Assembly: GCF_017357525.1 (NCBI RefSeq) | Contig: NZ_CP036172.1 | Span: 558,001-622,000 of the forward strand | Reading direction: 5' to 3' | Length of the DNA: 64,000 nt | DNA from: Methanofollis aquaemaris | GTDB lineage: Archaea; Halobacteriota; Methanomicrobia; Methanomicrobiales; Methanofollaceae | Part shown: positions 18,562 through 62,085 of the stretch, in pieces | Position numbering within the stretch: position 1 is the stretch's first letter | How the letters are laid out: each line of letters begins with the position of its first letter | Notes under the pieces: generated by a model | The model's input: the letters and a program-made list of their open reading frames with translations, nothing else | What the model was told of the DNA's origin: nothing | Databases searched by the model: none | Translations under genes and position numbers: made by a program

Positions 18562-19488
18562 ATGAACGGGGGCCGTGCACTCTTCACCATGGCCTGGAAG
18601 CGGGCCCTCCTTGAAAAGCGAGAGGTCCGGACGTCGGAGGGGAGGTATACCATCACCCTCGAGAGAGAAGATCTCTCGGTCCTGTATCCCGCAATGGAGC
18701 GCTACACCCTCACGCTCCGGGCCGGAAAAAAAGAGGTCGCCGTCTTCAGGACCAACACCTACGAATACTCCCCTACCGTCGGCCTCGACCCCCGCTCGGT
18801 CGCCAGGCAGCGCGCCCGAATATGGGAGGAGAGATTGAAAGACGAACCCCTCGATTTTCTCGAATATCTCACGAAAGAACAGACCCGTCGCCTGCCAACC
18901 CTCCCGCTCACCGATGTGCTCGTCATCCAGGGAAGCCCGCGGGCCGACGGGAACTGCAGCATCCTCGCCGGATGGGTCGCAGAAGAGGTTAAAATCTCCA
19001 GGAAGTCAGTGCAGGTGCTCTTGCCCGACGACATGGAGATCCATCCGTGCATCGGGTGTTACCAGTGCTACAACACCGGTGCCTGCACCTTCGAGGACGA
19101 GATGGAAGGGGTTGTCCGCGCCCTGCGGTGTGCCCGTCTCCTCGTCGTCTGTACGCCGGTCTACACCAGCACCGTCCCGGCCGGGCTCAAGGCCCTCATC
19201 GATCGCTGCCAGGCCCTGCATGCGGCGCTGAACTTCACGGGGAGGAGAAGAATGGAGGGTACTTGTGGCCTCCTCCTCGGAGTCTGCGGTCGGCAGGGCC
19301 AGGAGAACTTTGCATGTCTCGCACCGGTCGTCGAGGTCTTCATGGAGAACCTCGGGATTGTCCCGGCCGGCGAGGTGCTGGTCGACGGCATCGACCGGGC
19401 GCGAGACATCAGGACGATACCCGGTCTGGAAGGGTGGGTGCGCAAAGCGGTGCGAACCGCACTCAGTACTTCGTGTTGTCCTTCATGA
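18562..19488 (+). CDS. Iron-sulfur flavoprotein-like NAD(P)H:FMN oxidoreductase with extra N-terminal domain
   Basis: 308 aa. Residues 118-300 form a flavodoxin-like FMN domain (VIQGSPRADGNCS, then TPVYTSTVPAGLKALIDR). Between them CIGCYQCYNTGAC gives C163-x2-C166-x2-C169-x5-C175, the compact [4Fe-4S] motif of archaeal Isf proteins, which handle electrons and reduce O2/H2O2 in methanogens. The first ~115 residues are an added domain not normal for Isf. AGTTTAAAAG about 25 bases upstream supports a leaderless start at 18562. Its 3' end overlaps cheW by 26 bases on the opposite strand. Confidence 0.8.
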   Translation: MNGGRALFTMAWKRALLEKREVRTSEGRYTITLEREDLSVLYPAMERYTLTLRAGKKEVAVFRTNTYEYSPTVGLDPRSVARQRARIWEERLKDEPLDFLEYLTKEQTRRLPTLPLTDVLVIQGSPRADGNCSILAGWVAEEVKISRKSVQVLLPDDMEIHPCIGCYQCYNTGACTFEDEMEGVVRALRCARLLVVCTPVYTSTVPAGLKALIDRCQALHAALNFTGRRRMEGTCGLLLGVCGRQGQENFACLAPVVEVFMENLGIVPAGEVLVDGIDRARDIRTIPGLEGWVRKAVRTALSTSCCPS

Positions 19489-19933
19489 TCCTGAGCATAT
19501 CCAGCCAGATCACGAGTTCGCCCTTCTCGACACCCTTTTCAGCGCCTTCGCCACCGCTCTTGATGATCCCCTTCACAAAGCCGTCGGTACCGAGGCCCTC
19601 GTCGATCTGCTCGACATTCTTCTCCGATACCTGGATGACGCTGTGGACATCGCCGACGATCACCCCGACGTTCGCCCCGCCGGTTGCCTCGGGCATCAAC
19701 ACGATGATCTTCTTTGTCGTCTCGGTTTCCAGATCAGGAATGCTGAGGAGAGGGGCGAGGTCGATGACCGTTGTAACCTCACCCCGGAGATTGATCAGCC
19801 CGGCGATATGGGCCGGGGCTCTGGGAACCGGGGTGATCGGGATCATCTCCACGATCTCCCTTGCCAGGTGGATGTCCAGGGCATAGCACTCGCCACCCAG
19901 TTCGAACTTCACGACATCGATAGTTTCAGCCAT
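19463..19933 (-). CDS. cheW: Chemotaxis adaptor CheW
   Basis: 156 aa, one CheW/SH3-like domain: KFELGGECYALDIHLAREIVE at the start, then TPVPRAPAHIAGLINLRGEV with the conserved NLRGE, and GVIVGDVHSV. CheW links receptors to the CheA kinase under the membrane. It follows the receptor gene by 9 bases on the same strand, so the two are co-transcribed. No cheA lies in this window; the partner kinase must be elsewhere. Confidence 0.93.
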   Translation of the reverse strand: MAETIDVVKFELGGECYALDIHLAREIVEMIPITPVPRAPAHIAGLINLRGEVTTVIDLAPLLSIPDLETETTKKIIVLMPEATGGANVGVIVGDVHSVIQVSEKNVEQIDEGLGTDGFVKGIIKSGGEGAEKGVEKGELVIWLDMLRIMKDNTKY

Positions 19934-19942
19934 GTCCGGGCC

Positions 19943-21949
19943 TCACGCAAGTTTGAAGCCGCCCACCTTCTCACTGAGGTGGCCGACCATCTCTGCAACT
20001 TCATGGGCGCCGCTCCCGACCTCCTGGGCCGAGGCCGACACTTCTTCGGTGAGGGCGGCCATGTCTTCGATGCCGCGCATGCTCTCCTGGGTCATGCCCC
20101 TGGTCTCGGCCACCTTCTCGGTGACGCGGTTGGTGTTGCTTGCCTGGTCCTCGGTGGCTCTGGCGATCTCGGTCACGTTCTCCTTGACTTCCCGGGACAT
20201 CATGACCAGGTGGTTGAGGGCTTCGAGGGTCTTGTCGACACTTGCGATCCCCTCGTTGATCTCGGCGTAGACTCCCTCCATGTCCCTGGCTGTCATCTCG
20301 GTCTGGCCCTGGATGGTGGTGATCAGTCCCTCAATGTTGCTGGTCGCCTTCTTCGACTCGCCGGCAAGGTTTCTGACCTCGCCTGCGACGACCGCAAAGC
20401 CGCGACCGTGCTCACCGGCTCTGGCCGCCTCGATCGCAGCGTTGAGCGCGAGCAGGTTGGTCTGGTTGGAGATGTCGGTGATCAACTTGACGATCTTGTC
20501 GATCTCCTGCATCTGGGAGTTGAGTTTGCCAATCTCGTCCACAGCCCGCTGGGCAATGGTCACAACGGCCTGCATCTTTCCGGTCGCTTCCTGGCCGAGG
20601 TTCCTGGCCTGTTCGCCGACTTCGGCACCCTTCTCAGTGTTCTGGAGCACTTCCTGGCAGGTGCTGGCGATCTCCTCGACCGATGCGGAGAGGTCGGACA
20701 TCGCGCGTGCGGCGTCCTCGAAGTTGTCGAGTTGTTTCTTGGAGTCGTCAGATGCCTTCTGGCTCTTTATCGCGACCTGCTCGATGGCCTTCGCGATCTC
20801 CTCTGAACTCTTGCTCGTCTCGTCGGTGTTGGTGTTCACGTCCTGGATGGCTCTGGTGATATCGCTCATCAGATCGTTTATGGCAGTCCTGGTGTCGAGG
20901 AAGTCTTTCTTCAGGTTCCTGAGGGGATCGTCCTCGCGAAGTTCAAGGGCGACCGTGAGATCTCTCTTTGCCATGGCACCGAGAGCGGTTTCCAGTTCTT
21001 CTGCACTCGCTTCAAGCCGCTGTGCATTCTCTTGGGCCTGCTTCTCCTGTTCCTTGATGACGGTAATATCCTGGACGATCTCAATGTGCCCGATCCGCTG
21101 ACCTTCTTCATTTTTCAGGTAGGCGACTTCAAGTTTGAAGTTCTCCTCGCCGACGTCAAAAAAGGTGTTTATCGAGTCTTTACCGCTTCTCTGGAGTTGT
21201 TTGACACCACAGTTTTCGTTGTGGCAGAGCGGACCATTGGTGGCGCTGCAGTGCCGACCCCTCTGATGATCGCGATCAAGGCCGAAAGATTCTGCGAAAG
21301 CTTTGTTCATCGCGGTCCAGTTCATTGCCATATCGGTGACACTGATCGGGTACGGGATGGTGTCCAGGATCTCTTGATACCACCGGGCCTTCGTTTCCGC
21401 GTCCCCGGCAAGTTTTTCAGCCCGCGCCTGCTCTTCATCCGCCGCGGTGGTGTCTTCGATGACGAGGAGGATATTCTCGATCTTCCCGTCCTCACCGAAG
21501 AATGGGATGCTGTACTCATGGGCGCGCTTCACCCCGACCGGGTATTCGACCACGGTCCTGGAGCAACCACGCGTCTTTTTCCGGAGCGTGTCGCTGAGCC
21601 CGTCCCCTTCTTGCTCAAGAATCTTGAAGTCCTCGACATGTATCCCGACGACCTCGTCATGAGTCATCCCGCTGAACTTCTCGAAGGCGGGGTTGTCATC
21701 GGTGACATTGCAATCGGCATCCAGGAAGAGCATGGGCACCGGGTTCTCGCTAATCGTCATCTGGTAGTTTTTCAGATTTAAGGAGAGTTCTTTGCTCTCT
21801 TCTTCCTTCTTCTGAAGTTTCCCGATCAGCTGGTTCACTGCTGTGACGATAGGTCCGAGTTCTGCATCACACTGCTCTTCATCAAGGGTCTTTGAAAAAT
21901 CCCCGTTCAGTGCCCTGGATATAGTATCAGTAATCTCTGTAATCTCCAC
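19943..21949 (-). CDS. Cytosolic methyl-accepting chemotaxis protein with two PAS domains
   Basis: 668 aa, with no membrane helix. It starts with a short HAMP-like helix, then PAS 1 (about 65-168), PAS 2 (about 190-315) and a full MCP signalling hairpin whose tip contains [24 protein letters not shown] 2 carries cysteines C234, C242 and C247 in a short loop, suggesting a metal, haem or redox role. The receptor would sense an internal cue such as redox state or a ligand. GTG start at 21949 with AGGTGA eight bases upstream. Followed by cheW. Confidence 0.9.
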
Positions 21950-57476: not shown

Positions 57477-60326
57477 TCATTTTCTCTGCTCCCGGGCCGC
57501 CGGGTGCGGCACCCCCTCCAGTTCAGGGGCCGAACCGTGAACGGCCACATACTTCGCCACCGCGTGCGGCGCCCCGATGAGGAGACGGCGGGCGGTGTGG
57601 TAGACGCTTGGCTGTTTCTCCGGGTCGACGGCCCGCATCACCGAGAGAAGAACACCCACCAGCGGCGCCTGGTGCTCTTCGGCCATCCGGTCGAGGGCGC
57701 CGAAGACCTCGAGGGCGCTGACCGTGTTGTATTCGTTCACCCGGCCGAGGCGGCCGAGCACCTCTGCAAGATACTCCCGGCCCTCCGGCGTCTCCAGCGA
57801 GAGCTGCCGGTTCCTGGCAAACCGGCCGAAGAGTGCCCGCTGGTCGTTGGACTGCTCCATCCGGAAGGACGGCGAGGCCGTCACCCGTTGCACCAGATCG
57901 AGGGCGTCGGGTGCGGACGAACCGGCGACGACGGCAAGGAACGTCTCCCAGGAGACCGGGTGTTCCTTCGACTCCTCCTCGAAGGCGTCGAGCACCGCAC
58001 GCCGGTCGGGCGCCGAGGAGTCGAGGTACGCGGCGAAGGCAGCGATCCGATCGGTGGCGCACTGTGCATCGTCGAACTGCTCTTTGATAAGCGCGTGGAT
58101 CTCCGAGGTGTCGAGGGCGGCGAGCACCTGCAGGACGGCGTTCTTCACCTGTCGCGCCTTGATCGCCGACGGACTCCGGTCGGTCGGCGCCGCGGCGTAC
58201 CGGCGGTAGAGAGCGATAAGCCGCTCCTGGTGGGCGGCCGCGATCCCCCGCAGCAGGCGCACCCGTGCGTCGTGGAGGGCGGTGTATCGGTGGGCGTACC
58301 GGGGATTGGTCACCGACTCGAAGATGGTGAGGAACTGCCCGCCCGCACGGCGCATCAGGTCGGTGTCGTCGGCGAGGTCGGCATAGAGCGTGCAGAACTC
58401 CGCCGACGGCACCGCCGCGGGGTCGGCAAGCAGCCCGAGCATCTCGACCTCCGCACACCGCTGGAAGGCGGAAAACCTGGCGATGAGATCGGGATCGGTC
58501 CGCGCCTGGAGGAAGAGCGCCGCAGGCGCGGCATCGTCGGTCACCCGCCCGTAGAAGGTGTAGCCGCGGTTGACCGAGAGGTAGGCAGGGGCGTCGACGT
58601 CCTCGAAGACCATCGTCTCGTGTCGTCCCCTCACCAGGTGCGTCTGCTCCGCAAGGTCGACGCCGTCGGCCGCGACCAGGGCCACGGTCAGCGGGAAGAT
58701 CCAGGGCTCCGCGCCCTCGCGGGTCTCCTGCTCGAACGCGAGCGTGCAAGTACGCCTCGACGGATCGTACCGGTGCGTCATCCGCACCTCCGGGTACCCG
58801 GTCTGCTTCAGCCACACCCCGGCCATCTCGCCGAGACAGCGACCCGAGACCCCCTCCATCGCCTCCAGCCAGTCCTGCCTGGAGGCGTTCCCGTGGGCGA
58901 ATCGCCGGTGGTACACCCCGAGTCCCTGGACAAAGGCCTCTTTCCCCACGACGGTCTCGACCATCCTGACAAACTCCGGGGACTTCACATAGGTGACCCC
59001 GGTGATCAACTCGTTGGGATCGTTGAACCCGTCGGGCTCGATGGGCATCGAGGCCGCCCCCTCGTCCAGAGCGAAGGTGCCGGTCTCGGGATCGACGAGG
59101 TCGAGGACCGTCTGGAGACGGGCATACTCCTCGCCGAAGAAGAACCCAAAGTGCTGGTTCTCCACATGCACCGTCACCGCTTCGTTGAGCCAGATCTCAA
59201 ATGGCGTCTTCCCAGTCACCTCGGAACCGTTGAGGTTGTGGTAGTACTCGTGGACCTTCACCCGCACCATATACTCGAAGGCCCGGTCGGTCATCTGCGG
59301 GAAGGGCATCAGCCGGTTGGTGGTGATGGTGGTGTTGCCGACATTCTCCATCCCGCCATAGTCGGAGTTCTGCATCCCGATCTCGCGGTACACCGTGCCG
59401 GTGTAGGCATACCCGGGGATGATCTCCCCGACCCGCGCGGCGAGTTCGGCCCGCAACGCCGCGACGCGTTCCCCGTCCCCGTCCCCGTCCGCCTTCGCCC
59501 GGTCCCGCTCGTGGCACCGCGCCATGATGGCCTTGCGGAGAGGGAGGTCGTGGTATTGGTCCGGGCCGGTGAAGAGATAGACCCAGAGCACGCCGTCGGC
59601 GAGCACCTCCAGCGCCTCCTCTGCGGCCGCGGGGTCGGAACCCGGAGGGGCCAGGAGTTCGAGGGCGAAGGTCCGGCCGTCCGGGTACTCGAACTCGCGC
59701 CTGAAGGTCGCATAGGTGCCGACGCCCAGGAAGAAGAGGTACGGGGCCATCGGGGTGATGGTGTTGTCGAAGGTGACGACCTGCCGGCCGTCCCCATAGG
59801 GTCTCGGGGCCGAGAGGGGGTCGCCGTTGGAGATGATGTTGGTGTAGCGTTCGTCCGCGACGACCGTCGTCATGTAGGTGCACTTGGCCATCATGTCGTC
59901 GAAGCACGGGACGATCCGCTGGAAGCCCCACTGCTGGCACTGGGTGATCTGAGTCGGCGGGGCACCGGCCGGGGTCACGTCATAATACAGCCCCTCCAGG
60001 AGGTGGTCGGAGGGGCGGCACCTGGTGCGGGTGAGCAGGTGGAGGTCTGCTCCGGCAGGGAGAGGGGTGGCGAAGGTGAAGATCAGGAGGTGGCCTTTCG
60101 TGTTGTACTCAACCGAGGCCTCGAACTCCTCGCACGAGGCGGCCAGCACCTCGAGGTCGCGGGCATTCAGTTCCAGCCTCTCGACCGACCGGTCCCGCAC
60201 CCGCAGATGCAGCCGCGACCCCACCCCGGTCACCTCGTCGCCGACCGAGATCATCAGGTCCATATGGAGGACATCAACCGGCAGTTCGCCAAAATCTTCT
60301 GGATAAAAGGTAAAAAGACGCGTCAT
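57477..60326 (-). CDS. M1-family aminopeptidase (aminopeptidase N-like)
   Basis: 949 aa. Zinc site HEYYH followed 18-19 residues later by LNEAVTVHVE; substrate motif GGMEN (for GAMEN) in YGGMENVGNT. N-terminal beta saddle, catalytic thermolysin-like domain, and a long helical C-terminal half (after ~540) as in full-length aminopeptidase N. It trims amino acids from peptides, probably in the cytosol downstream of the proteasome. ATG 60326 follows GGTGA; GTG 60335 is an alternative start. Confidence 0.92.
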   Translation of the reverse strand: MTRLFTFYPEDFGELPVDVLHMDLMISVGDEVTGVGSRLHLRVRDRSVERLELNARDLEVLAASCEEFEASVEYNTKGHLLIFTFATPLPAGADLHLLTRTRCRPSDHLLEGLYYDVTPAGAPPTQITQCQQWGFQRIVPCFDDMMAKCTYMTTVVADERYTNIISNGDPLSAPRPYGDGRQVVTFDNTITPMAPYLFFLGVGTYATFRREFEYPDGRTFALELLAPPGSDPAAAEEALEVLADGVLWVYLFTGPDQYHDLPLRKAIMARCHERDRAKADGDGDGERVAALRAELAARVGEIIPGYAYTGTVYREIGMQNSDYGGMENVGNTTITTNRLMPFPQMTDRAFEYMVRVKVHEYYHNLNGSEVTGKTPFEIWLNEAVTVHVENQHFGFFFGEEYARLQTVLDLVDPETGTFALDEGAASMPIEPDGFNDPNELITGVTYVKSPEFVRMVETVVGKEAFVQGLGVYHRRFAHGNASRQDWLEAMEGVSGRCLGEMAGVWLKQTGYPEVRMTHRYDPSRRTCTLAFEQETREGAEPWIFPLTVALVAADGVDLAEQTHLVRGRHETMVFEDVDAPAYLSVNRGYTFYGRVTDDAAPAALFLQARTDPDLIARFSAFQRCAEVEMLGLLADPAAVPSAEFCTLYADLADDTDLMRRAGGQFLTIFESVTNPRYAHRYTALHDARVRLLRGIAAAHQERLIALYRRYAAAPTDRSPSAIKARQVKNAVLQVLAALDTSEIHALIKEQFDDAQCATDRIAAFAAYLDSSAPDRRAVLDAFEEESKEHPVSWETFLAVVAGSSAPDALDLVQRVTASPSFRMEQSNDQRALFGRFARNRQLSLETPEGREYLAEVLGRLGRVNEYNTVSALEVFGALDRMAEEHQAPLVGVLLSVMRAVDPEKQPSVYHTARRLLIGAPHAVAKYVAVHGSAPELEGVPHPAAREQRK

Positions 60327-60392
60327 CAGACTCACCCAGGATAGGGGCCGGGGAATGATTATCCTTGCCCCTGCCGGGTGGATCCTATTCTT

Positions 60393-61064
60393 CTATCTCC
60401 GTTGCAAGAGACTCCTGATGCGTCCGAAAGGAACATCAGGGGTGGTGATGAGACACAGGATCCCGTCATCCTCGTCGGTGACAAGGAAGGTACCTGACCT
60501 GGTCTCAAGCGTGAAGTCCGAGACCTCACCGATCCCAAGAACGTCCGCGAGATCGCAGGCGATTCCAAAGGCCGAACAGAGAGCCTGCTCGTCCAGGTCG
60601 TCGGGCCGCCTCCCGGCCAGGACCTCAAGGCCCCCGGCACCGCACCGACCCACCATCTGAATCCCGACATCCAACCCCGGTGCAGCCGGGACAGGCTGCA
60701 TCCGGGCTTGGACCGGAGGTTCGTCAGGTACCGTCGGTGCCGACACTGCACCTGCGATCGGGACGCCATGTTCCTCGCACCATTCTTGAGCGGTCGAGAA
60801 CTCTTCTCCGGTATACCGGCAGAGAGTCAGATCGACCACCTCCTGAGAAAGGAGGTATTCCCTGGCTGCTTTGCCGCGCAGGACCATCCCGCCGTACCTG
60901 AACCAGTAGGCAAGTACCTCTCCCTTCTTGATCAGGAGAAACCCGTTCCCTCCCTGGACCTCGACCGCAATTTTTCCGACAAACTTGCCGGTGTGGGAGA
61001 AGACCCATGTGAGTGGGGCCTGCATCATGCCAAGACTGGCTCCTTCAGGGAGTTCTACTGTCAT
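60393..61064 (-). CDS. Partner protein of the HAMP-Roadblock operon
   Basis: 223 aa, soluble. The N-terminal ~90 residues (LTWVFSHTGKFVGKIAVEVQ; GGNGFLLIKKGEVLAYWFRY) resemble a small beta-type module like those fused to signalling regulators. After a Pro-rich linker, the C-terminal ~80 residues (SDFTLETRSGTFLVTDEDDG) have the alternating strand pattern of a Roadblock-like domain. It overlaps the Roadblock gene by ATGA. Not recognised with certainty. Confidence 0.65.
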   Translation of the reverse strand: MTVELPEGASLGMMQAPLTWVFSHTGKFVGKIAVEVQGGNGFLLIKKGEVLAYWFRYGGMVLRGKAAREYLLSQEVVDLTLCRYTGEEFSTAQEWCEEHGVPIAGAVSAPTVPDEPPVQARMQPVPAAPGLDVGIQMVGRCGAGGLEVLAGRRPDDLDEQALCSAFGIACDLADVLGIGEVSDFTLETRSGTFLVTDEDDGILCLITTPDVPFGRIRSLLQRR

Positions 61065-61408
61065 ACCACTGATGTGATCAATTCGATGTTCTTCTTCATC
61101 TCGTATCTGACCCGGCCCTGGTTGGCCCCGGGGCCGAGGAGAACTGCAAGCACGGAACCGTCCTCGATGGGCATGACCAGGAGGCTTCCCCCGGTCCCCT
61201 CCACGATGGCTCCACCGTATCGCTCGGTCTCCAGCCCGCCGGCGAGTCGGTCCCAGGATGATGCCGCCCCATGTATCAGGGGAGCGGCGCCGTCCCAGTC
61301 GGCACCCCCGGCCTGACCGAGCACCTCGCCTTCAGGCCCGACCAGGGCGGCACCGACCGCCCCGCCGACCAGCAGTTTTTTCAGGACAAATGTGAGCATT
61401 CCAACCAT
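61061..61408 (-). CDS. Roadblock/LC7-like protein
   Basis: 115 aa. A helix, then VGPEGEVLGQAGGADW, a helix, and a beta hairpin with GGAIVEGTGGSLLVMPIEDG and VLAVLLGPGANQG: the Roadblock/LC7 profilin-like pattern. In bacteria such proteins (MglB) act on small GTPases; no GTPase gene is adjacent here. Start 61408 has GAGGT upstream and overlaps the previous stop by one base. Confidence 0.75.
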   Translation of the reverse strand: MVGMLTFVLKKLLVGGAVGAALVGPEGEVLGQAGGADWDGAAPLIHGAASSWDRLAGGLETERYGGAIVEGTGGSLLVMPIEDGSVLAVLLGPGANQGRVRYEMKKNIELITSVV

Positions 61409-61650
61409 CAAAAAACCTCTTCAATGCCCGAAAGTTTCAGAACCCTGCCCCGTATCCGCCCGGCAGCCTCAGTGCCAAGGACCGGCACCACCGCCGCGTG
61501 GCAGGCATCCGCCAGAGCAGGGAGGTCGGCCCGGGTCAGCCCGGACGGACTCTTGTTCAGTGCCTTCTTCGCACACCTGGAGAGGAGACGCGCGGCCGAG
61601 GGGCCGATCTCCTCCTTCAGGGCTGCGAGCACGTCGTCGTCCAGCGACAT
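61408..61650 (-). CDS. Small helical protein of the HAMP-Roadblock operon
   Basis: 80 aa, wholly alpha-helical by sequence: LAALKEEIGPSAARLLSRCA, KKALNKSPSGL, LPALADACHAAVVPVLG. No cofactor motif. It may be an adaptor between the HAMP protein and the Roadblock protein. SD GAGGTGGT before ATG 61650. No named family recognised. Confidence 0.7.
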   Translation of the reverse strand: MSLDDDVLAALKEEIGPSAARLLSRCAKKALNKSPSGLTRADLPALADACHAAVVPVLGTEAAGRIRGRVLKLSGIEEVF

Positions 61651-61662
61651 CCAGGGACCACC

Positions 61663-62085
61663 TCACTCATTATCTTCACGAGCAAGAGCATCGAGAACCC
61701 GGTACGAGTTGATCATCCTGTTGAAGGATGCGGCAAGATCTCCGATCTCGTCGTTGCTCATGACGTCGACCTCTGCTCCCTTGAGGTCTCCCATCGAGAC
61801 ATTCCTGGCCACCTCAGAGAGTTGTGTGATAGGGCTTGTGATGCTGCTTGCAAGGAAGAAACTCCACATCACCACGATCGCAAGAGTCGCCAGGGTCAGG
61901 ACGAATACCGTCCCCTGGAGACCGAGGACTTCCACAATCCATCCCGTGTCTCCGGCCGCCATGATCCCGAGCAGGATGACCGGGATCACCGCGACAAAGA
62001 GCATGCTCACAAAGAGTTTGTAGAAGATGGGGATCTGGAGGGTGAGGCTCCTCCCCTGTGTGCCGGACCTGGCCATGCCGTCCAT
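61663..62085 (-). CDS. HAMP-domain membrane protein without output domain
   Basis: 140 aa. Two membrane helices (about 21-43 and 55-80) with a short outer loop, then a HAMP domain (SSITSPITQLSEVARNVSMG, DEIGDLAASFNRMINSYRVL), and then it stops. In normal receptors HAMP passes a signal to a kinase or MCP module; here none is fused, so the following soluble genes likely provide output. First gene of the operon; TTTAAATT lies about 30 bases upstream. Confidence 0.85.
   Translation of the reverse strand: MDGMARSGTQGRSLTLQIPIFYKLFVSMLFVAVIPVILLGIMAAGDTGWIVEVLGLQGTVFVLTLATLAIVVMWSFFLASSITSPITQLSEVARNVSMGDLKGAEVDVMSNDEIGDLAASFNRMINSYRVLDALAREDNE

Follow-up and report, generated by a model that had tools for sequence, protein, structure and literature searches.

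A kinase-free membrane cassette of HAMP and Roadblock proteins with an optional STAC member in Methanomicrobiales

Four minus-strand open reading frames at positions 60393-62085 of a 64,000-nucleotide stretch of the Methanofollis aquaemaris genome (the window) raise the question of what a membrane HAMP protein that carries no output domain may act on, and whether the Roadblock/LC7 proteins encoded with it are part of the answer. The original prediction described four tightly overlapping genes forming a possible new signalling module. This description fits three of them, the overlap being 1-4 bases between the 80-aa gene and RB, depending on the choice of start codon, and 4 bases between RB and N, whereas the HAMP gene lies 12 bases apart from the 80-aa gene (Table 1). 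When compared with three relatives of the same genus, all four genes were found to be under purifying selection, with dN/dS values of 0.08-0.15 for the HAMP protein, 0.04-0.26 for RB, 0.15-0.31 for N and 0.34-0.46 for the 80-aa gene, the least constrained of the four. Pfam searches of the four proteins returned no kinase, receiver, MCP signalling or GTPase domain, in agreement with the proposal that this is not a standard two-component or chemotaxis design, and the NCBIfam kinase and MCP matches were confined to the HAMP stretch and lay far under the cut-off.

Table 1. Genes of the cassette in the window, with their positions, strand and assignment.
Gene	Positions	Strand	Assignment and remarks
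HAMP protein, 140 aa	61663..62085	-	Two-helix membrane protein with HAMP at its end and without output domain; cassette core
Stand-alone STAC protein (by modelled fold), 80 aa, Af1502-like	61408..61650	-	Optional cassette member
RB, Roadblock/LC7 protein, 116 aa	61061..61411	-	Annotated start TTG, with an ATG directly after
N, 223 aa	60393..61064	-	Alpha/beta N-terminal domain (about 1-100), disordered linker, predicted C-terminal Roadblock domain (128-223); cassette core

The reading of the first protein as a two-helix HAMP protein without output domain was upheld, HAMP being its only significant Pfam domain (E 1.1e-12, 48.5 bits against a cut-off of 25, residues 77-126 of 140), together with two hydrophobic segments separated by a loop of about a dozen residues. 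The motif QIPIFYKL..SMLFVA of the first transmembrane segment is invariant in an alignment of 16 HAMP proteins, and the C-terminal tail RM-N-SY-ILD is kept whether or not STAC and RB are present. The top PDB matches of the family profile are HAMP structures of Af1503 from Archaeoglobus fulgidus (2e-6), which is the source of many of the solved HAMP structures. As in Af1503, the HAMP domain is the sole cytosolic module and no effector was recognized by Pfam or in the alignment. The N-terminal outside sensor domain of the Af1503-like receptors is absent, the short loop standing in its place, and the protein is therefore a variant of these output-less receptors and not a full member. Because the outside domain is almost absent, what the HAMP protein responds to is probably the membrane itself, or a partner within it, and not a soluble ligand.

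The 80-aa protein had been predicted to be helical, and its AlphaFold2 model is all-helical with a mean pLDDT of 86. No significant Pfam or NCBIfam family was found for it, and its 19 relatives likewise gave nothing significant in Pfam. Structural comparison with VIA placed Af1502 (5a1q) first of 618 chains, with a Z of 7.8 and an rmsd of 2.3 over 67/68 residues, the next entry having a Z of 5.2; the Foldseek E value against Af1502 was not significant, and a helical bundle matching over such a length does not amount to proof. A profile built from the 19 relatives also has Af1502 as its top PDB match, at an E of 0.044 that is weak by itself; according to the authors of the STAC paper, in the part available to us, sequence searches are unsuccessful with Af1502 too (PMC4834066). 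The same part describes Af1503 and Af1502 as an adjacent pair of output-less HAMP receptor and STAC partner with the motif LGPx(x)A, and refers to Methanofollis liminatans as the source of a stand-alone STAC (PMC4834066). The corresponding stretch of the 80-aa protein is IGPSA, in which G is invariant and P and A occur in at least 90% of the 19 aligned rows, and its gene adjoins that of an output-less HAMP receptor, as expected of a stand-alone STAC gene. Judged by its modelled fold together with motif and gene position, we assign the 80-aa protein, like Af1502, to the stand-alone STAC proteins; it is not a new kind of protein. In this respect the description as a new module is not supported as it stood, since output-less HAMP receptors paired with a protein of this known kind were already published.

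STAC genes with HAMP partners are also found away from the cassette. A HAMP membrane protein precedes the STAC relative in all six of the loci L066, L072, L074, L075, L076 and L077 and in 11/16 further non-cassette loci (L107-L122), and none of the non-cassette loci with STAC and HAMP was flagged for a Roadblock gene. Several of these relatives depart from the stand-alone form. At L076:4811-6265, directly after a HAMP protein, the STAC domain is fused into a larger protein that also has a long linker and TPR repeats, and STAC-like C-termini without an adjoining HAMP gene occur in 299-358-aa proteins of L109, L111 and L121, whose genomes are from a different family in the phylum. A HAMP partner is likewise lacking for the STAC-like proteins at L119:819-1713 and L112:1399-1713, the one in L119 following two membrane proteins of 111-113 aa. 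In L072 and L075 the genes after the HAMP-STAC pair encode first a PAS protein with two HAMP-like repeats at its end and next a PAS-MCP protein, an order that leaves room for a possible tie of STAC receptors to chemotaxis.

This neighbourhood bears on the idea that the cassette is a side-arm of chemotaxis, with the HAMP protein joining chemoreceptor arrays or feeding a Che system in which the Roadblock proteins would act. Some STAC-HAMP receptors elsewhere do adjoin methyl-accepting-type proteins (L066, L072, L075), and genes read as CheW-like and as a 668-aa MCP-like protein are present at 19463-21949 (-) of the window, not near the cassette. No Che gene, however, adjoins any of the cassette loci examined, and none of the four cassette proteins has an MCP signalling domain, so that we consider this role very improbable.

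The Roadblock assignments were confirmed for both downstream genes. RB matches Pfam Robl_LC7 with an E of 4.6e-5 and 23.5 bits, just above the cut-off of 23, and the profile of its family finds solved Roadblock and MglB chains in the PDB, down to 2.4e-10. N by itself gave no Pfam Robl_LC7 match; its paralogue in the same genome has a Pfam Roadblock match, and in two alignments of the N family 12/22 proteins were over the Pfam threshold and 13/24 matched at E<=1. The AlphaFold2 model of N, built with 23 sequences (mean pLDDT 81), contains two folded domains joined by a disordered stretch at 107-129, where the pLDDT is under 50. Roadblock proteins head the Foldseek list for this model, and VIA-align placed the Ragulator and MglB Roadblock structures all on residues 128-223, with Z up to 11.2. 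Structure prediction thus supports with confidence a Roadblock fold for residues 128-223, the C-terminus that had been suspected to look Roadblock-like.

The alpha/beta N-terminal domain of N (about residues 1-100) is also confidently modelled by AlphaFold2, and has no Pfam family and no PDB sequence match. PATAN/DUF4388 (PF14332) was considered for it and gave no match among 24 N proteins in a sequence-level search; the same family was above cut-off in 0/196 genomes of the phylum. A search with N alone returned 62 matched stretches with no relative among them, and weak matches to its N-terminal domain were noticed in three genomes outside the order (G206, G233, G215). A third Roadblock protein of the same genome, of 149 aa, is encoded at 973.6-974.7 kb (L002:1381-2465) and shares its operon with a REC-MetOD2 response regulator.

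To define the conserved unit, 199 genomes of the order were searched at E<=1e-20 with a profile of residues 1-76 of the HAMP protein, a stretch that leaves out the HAMP domain. The cassette HAMP was found in 63/199 genomes, and the neighbourhoods of all 63 were examined. N lies downstream of it in 61/63, the exceptions being a contig that ends 222 bases downstream (G120) and a genome in which the HAMP frame itself is cut short (G075). RB is present in 40/63 cassettes and an intact STAC gene in 12/63. By layout, 12 of the 63 loci hold intact STAC, RB and N (L062 being counted here), one holds a truncated STAC with RB and N, three have RB and N with a STAC-sized spacer (a weak STAC trace in one, E 0.0018), 24 have RB and N without STAC (including L185, whose RB is the cassette RB), and in 21 N alone follows HAMP. 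The cassette core is thus HAMP plus N, a well-supported linkage, with RB a usual and STAC an optional member. STAC as an invariant partner of the cassette HAMP is rejected, being absent from most cassettes. Three own-genus loci (L054, L055, L056) show STAC apparently decaying between HAMP and RB, with HAMP, RB and N intact.

In a separate scan over contigs of 84,980 species, 21 of the 82 matched stretches were relatives; they come from Methanomicrobiales-type records throughout and show the same three layouts. Of 294 genomes scanned across the phylum, 23 carry the cassette HAMP, and these all belong to the own order, so that an operon spread over the archaea is rejected within the genomes scanned. 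The proposed conservation of the four-gene order in archaea therefore extends well beyond the species, with the cassette HAMP seen only within the own order, where the full form is in the minority (12 intact of 63).

The genes around the cassette vary by lineage. In most loci of the own genus the gene immediately upstream encodes an MMPL transporter (MMPL 1.4e-52), and downstream lies the gene of a large peptidase, which we take to be M1-like. A 946-aa open frame at 57504-60344 (+) of the window runs antisense to the 952-aa peptidase-like gene and is most likely a mirror ORF, of the kind that a GC-rich gene produces. Five f2 genomes have the cassette oriented divergently from a hydrogenase operon, at whose end stands a paralogous RB-N pair, and in Methanoregula-type records the cassette sits among what are presumably cofactor-biosynthesis genes. 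Since neighbour genes differ between lineages, a shared neighbourhood does not explain the HAMP-N linkage, and the cassette appears self-contained; its content being kept while the surroundings change, it likely functions as a unit. These observations support a self-contained, kinase-free membrane signalling cassette in which HAMP and N form the conserved unit and RB and N carry the Roadblock domains.

The upstream transporter suggests another role, in which the cassette would regulate or read a transport protein, with the Roadblock pair as the read-out. Besides the position of the MMPL gene in most own-genus loci, this would accord with the tie that the STAC authors draw, in the part of their paper available to us, between Af1503-like receptors and membrane transport genes (PMC4834066). 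The MMPL gene is, however, not upstream in L062, L063 or the other lineages, and most cassettes are without STAC. Control of a transporter is for these reasons improbable.

The structural matches of N point in turn to Ragulator/LAMTOR, in which membrane-held Roadblock heterodimers control small GTPases and which its modelled C-terminal domain resembles at the level of the fold (MP1/p14, Z 11.2). The Ragulator is tethered to the membrane by p18/LAMTOR1, an anchor that is lipidated and, unlike that of the cassette, not a HAMP protein. By analogy, the HAMP protein might merely tether a Roadblock scaffold to the membrane and pass on no signal, a role suited to its nearly absent outside domain and to the Ragulator chains among the top structural matches of N. 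Against such a static anchor, a bona fide HAMP domain, needless for mere tethering, is retained in every cassette lineage, and STAC, a known partner of HAMP receptors, is under selection where intact; we judge it rather unlikely, yet the most serious of the competing explanations.

The cassette contains no GTPase gene. A 163-aa Ras/MglA-like small GTPase is encoded about 525 kb from the cassette (G000:C1:93485-93973), with a Pfam Ras match over the cut-off (5.2e-7) and PDB matches to Rab14 (3.6e-8) and MglA (2.7e-7). Its orthologues, at a cut-off of E<=1e-20, occur in 112/199 genomes of the order, and Roadblock genes, with cassette and hydrogenase-locus types pooled, in 129/199; this cut-off and the family labels were chosen by us from the search tables. 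Both are present in 106 genomes, Roadblock only in 23, the GTPase only in 6 and neither in 64 (29 discordant), counts that, like their p values, ignore the relatedness of the genomes. By family, the numbers with both, Roadblock only, GTPase only and neither are 39/10/3/23 in f5, 35/2/0/3 in f4, 7/3/1/0 in f3 and 12/0/0/0 in f1; in f2 (13/8/2/5) the association is not significant, and all 33 genomes of f6 (0/0/0/33) are without GTPase and Roadblock. A GTPase orthologue is present in 58/63 cassette genomes against 54/136 of the others, the five cassette genomes without it being G120, G168, G175, G186 and G191.

The cassette loci contain no such gene, and in 12 GTPase loci scanned no cassette or Roadblock gene was found nearby, so that a lone GTPase gene within the operon or adjoining it is rejected. 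For methanogens, the portion of a survey available to us describes a Group 4 of MglA, recorded in 56% of the methanogenic Euryarchaeota covered, whose mglA genes have no conserved neighbours (PMC4316618). A 391-aa protein of the own genome (L130:6507-7682) has a Ras/Arf-like GTPase in its C-terminal half and an N-terminal half that reads as KaiC-like, and adjoins a DUF7504 protein. The own-genome PF00025 matches, one a Ras fusion and one another protein (presumably a KaiC-like/Ras fusion and an HflX-like protein), were rejected as the GTPase partner.

A second RB-N pair of the genome lies after [NiFe]-hydrogenase subunit genes and before MinD-like, T2SSE and two T2SSF genes; a divergent gene beside it encodes a prepilin peptidase. 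The seven hydrogenase-locus RBs form one clade (support 99/99) apart from the cassette RBs, and derivation of the cassette RB as a recent copy of a hydrogenase-locus RB is therefore unsupported; L069 was excluded from the trees and L097, which has masked bases, from the fold alignment. According to the part of PMC4858521 available to us, the archaeal Roadblock proteins grouped as arCOG02603 frequently have their genes within type IV pilus loci. The cassette is perhaps linked to type IV pilus machinery as well, a link that comes from the paralogue and not from the cassette's own-genome neighbours.

Taken as a mechanism, it is possible, and we propose it tentatively, that the HAMP protein relays to or anchors a Roadblock platform that would probably act on a small GTPase. 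The HAMP protein would dimerise, and its HAMP domain and conserved C-terminal tail would hold a Roadblock dimer made of RB and the C-terminal domain of N, or of N with itself in lineages without RB. A conformational change of the HAMP domain would then switch this dimer, the N-terminal domain of N would serve as the effector-binding part, and STAC, where retained, would tune the HAMP end. The likeliest target would be the separately encoded Ras/MglA-like GTPase, towards which the cassette may act as a GAP, GEF or scaffold, and through which type IV pilus machinery might perhaps be regulated. The strictest form of this proposal, a phosphorylation-free one-step route in which a membrane HAMP dimer directly switches an RB and N heterodimer that is the GAP or GEF for an MglA-type GTPase of type IV pili, seems rather unlikely as a whole.

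Besides Ragulator, three characterized systems share parts of this arrangement. Like Af1503 and Af1502, the cassette joins a receptor whose sole cytosolic domain is HAMP to an adjacent STAC gene of 60-90 aa with the GPxA motif and a matching fold, and the top PDB matches of the two families are exactly the Af1503 HAMP and Af1502; unlike them, it has no outside sensor domain, is linked to RB and N and can dispense with STAC. Its Roadblock proteins share the MglB fold with the MglA/MglB and MglB/RomY systems of Myxococcus xanthus, where, in the part of the source available to us, RomY is a second partner aiding the Roadblock GAP as co-GAP (PMC9481161). The cassette operon differs from MglA/MglB in having no GTPase gene and in including a HAMP membrane protein, and N has an extra domain. 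In the actinobacterial conservon, as far as the accessible portion of the source describes it, CvnA is a HAMP histidine kinase, CvnB a Roadblock protein and CvnD the GTPase, with CvnC as a further member (PMC4316618); a HAMP membrane protein and a Roadblock protein thus share one operon there too, yet the cassette has no kinase and GTPase genes, and no conservon counterpart of N or STAC was found among those tested. No description of a HAMP-N or HAMP-STAC-Roadblock cassette was found in the literature consulted, and the full STAC paper may mention one.

According to the part of the STAC paper available to us, Af1503 has no recognizable effector (PMC4834066). With HAMP tied to one Roadblock partner in 61/63 loci, the target of an output-less HAMP receptor now has a named candidate, and the question becomes testable in organisms that also hold a matching small GTPase. 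If a direct route from HAMP through Roadblock to GTPase is true, it would be the first defined effector for output-less HAMP receptors of the Af1503 kind, and the co-occurrence of GTPase and Roadblock genes suggests where the regulators of the methanogen Group 4 MglA may be.
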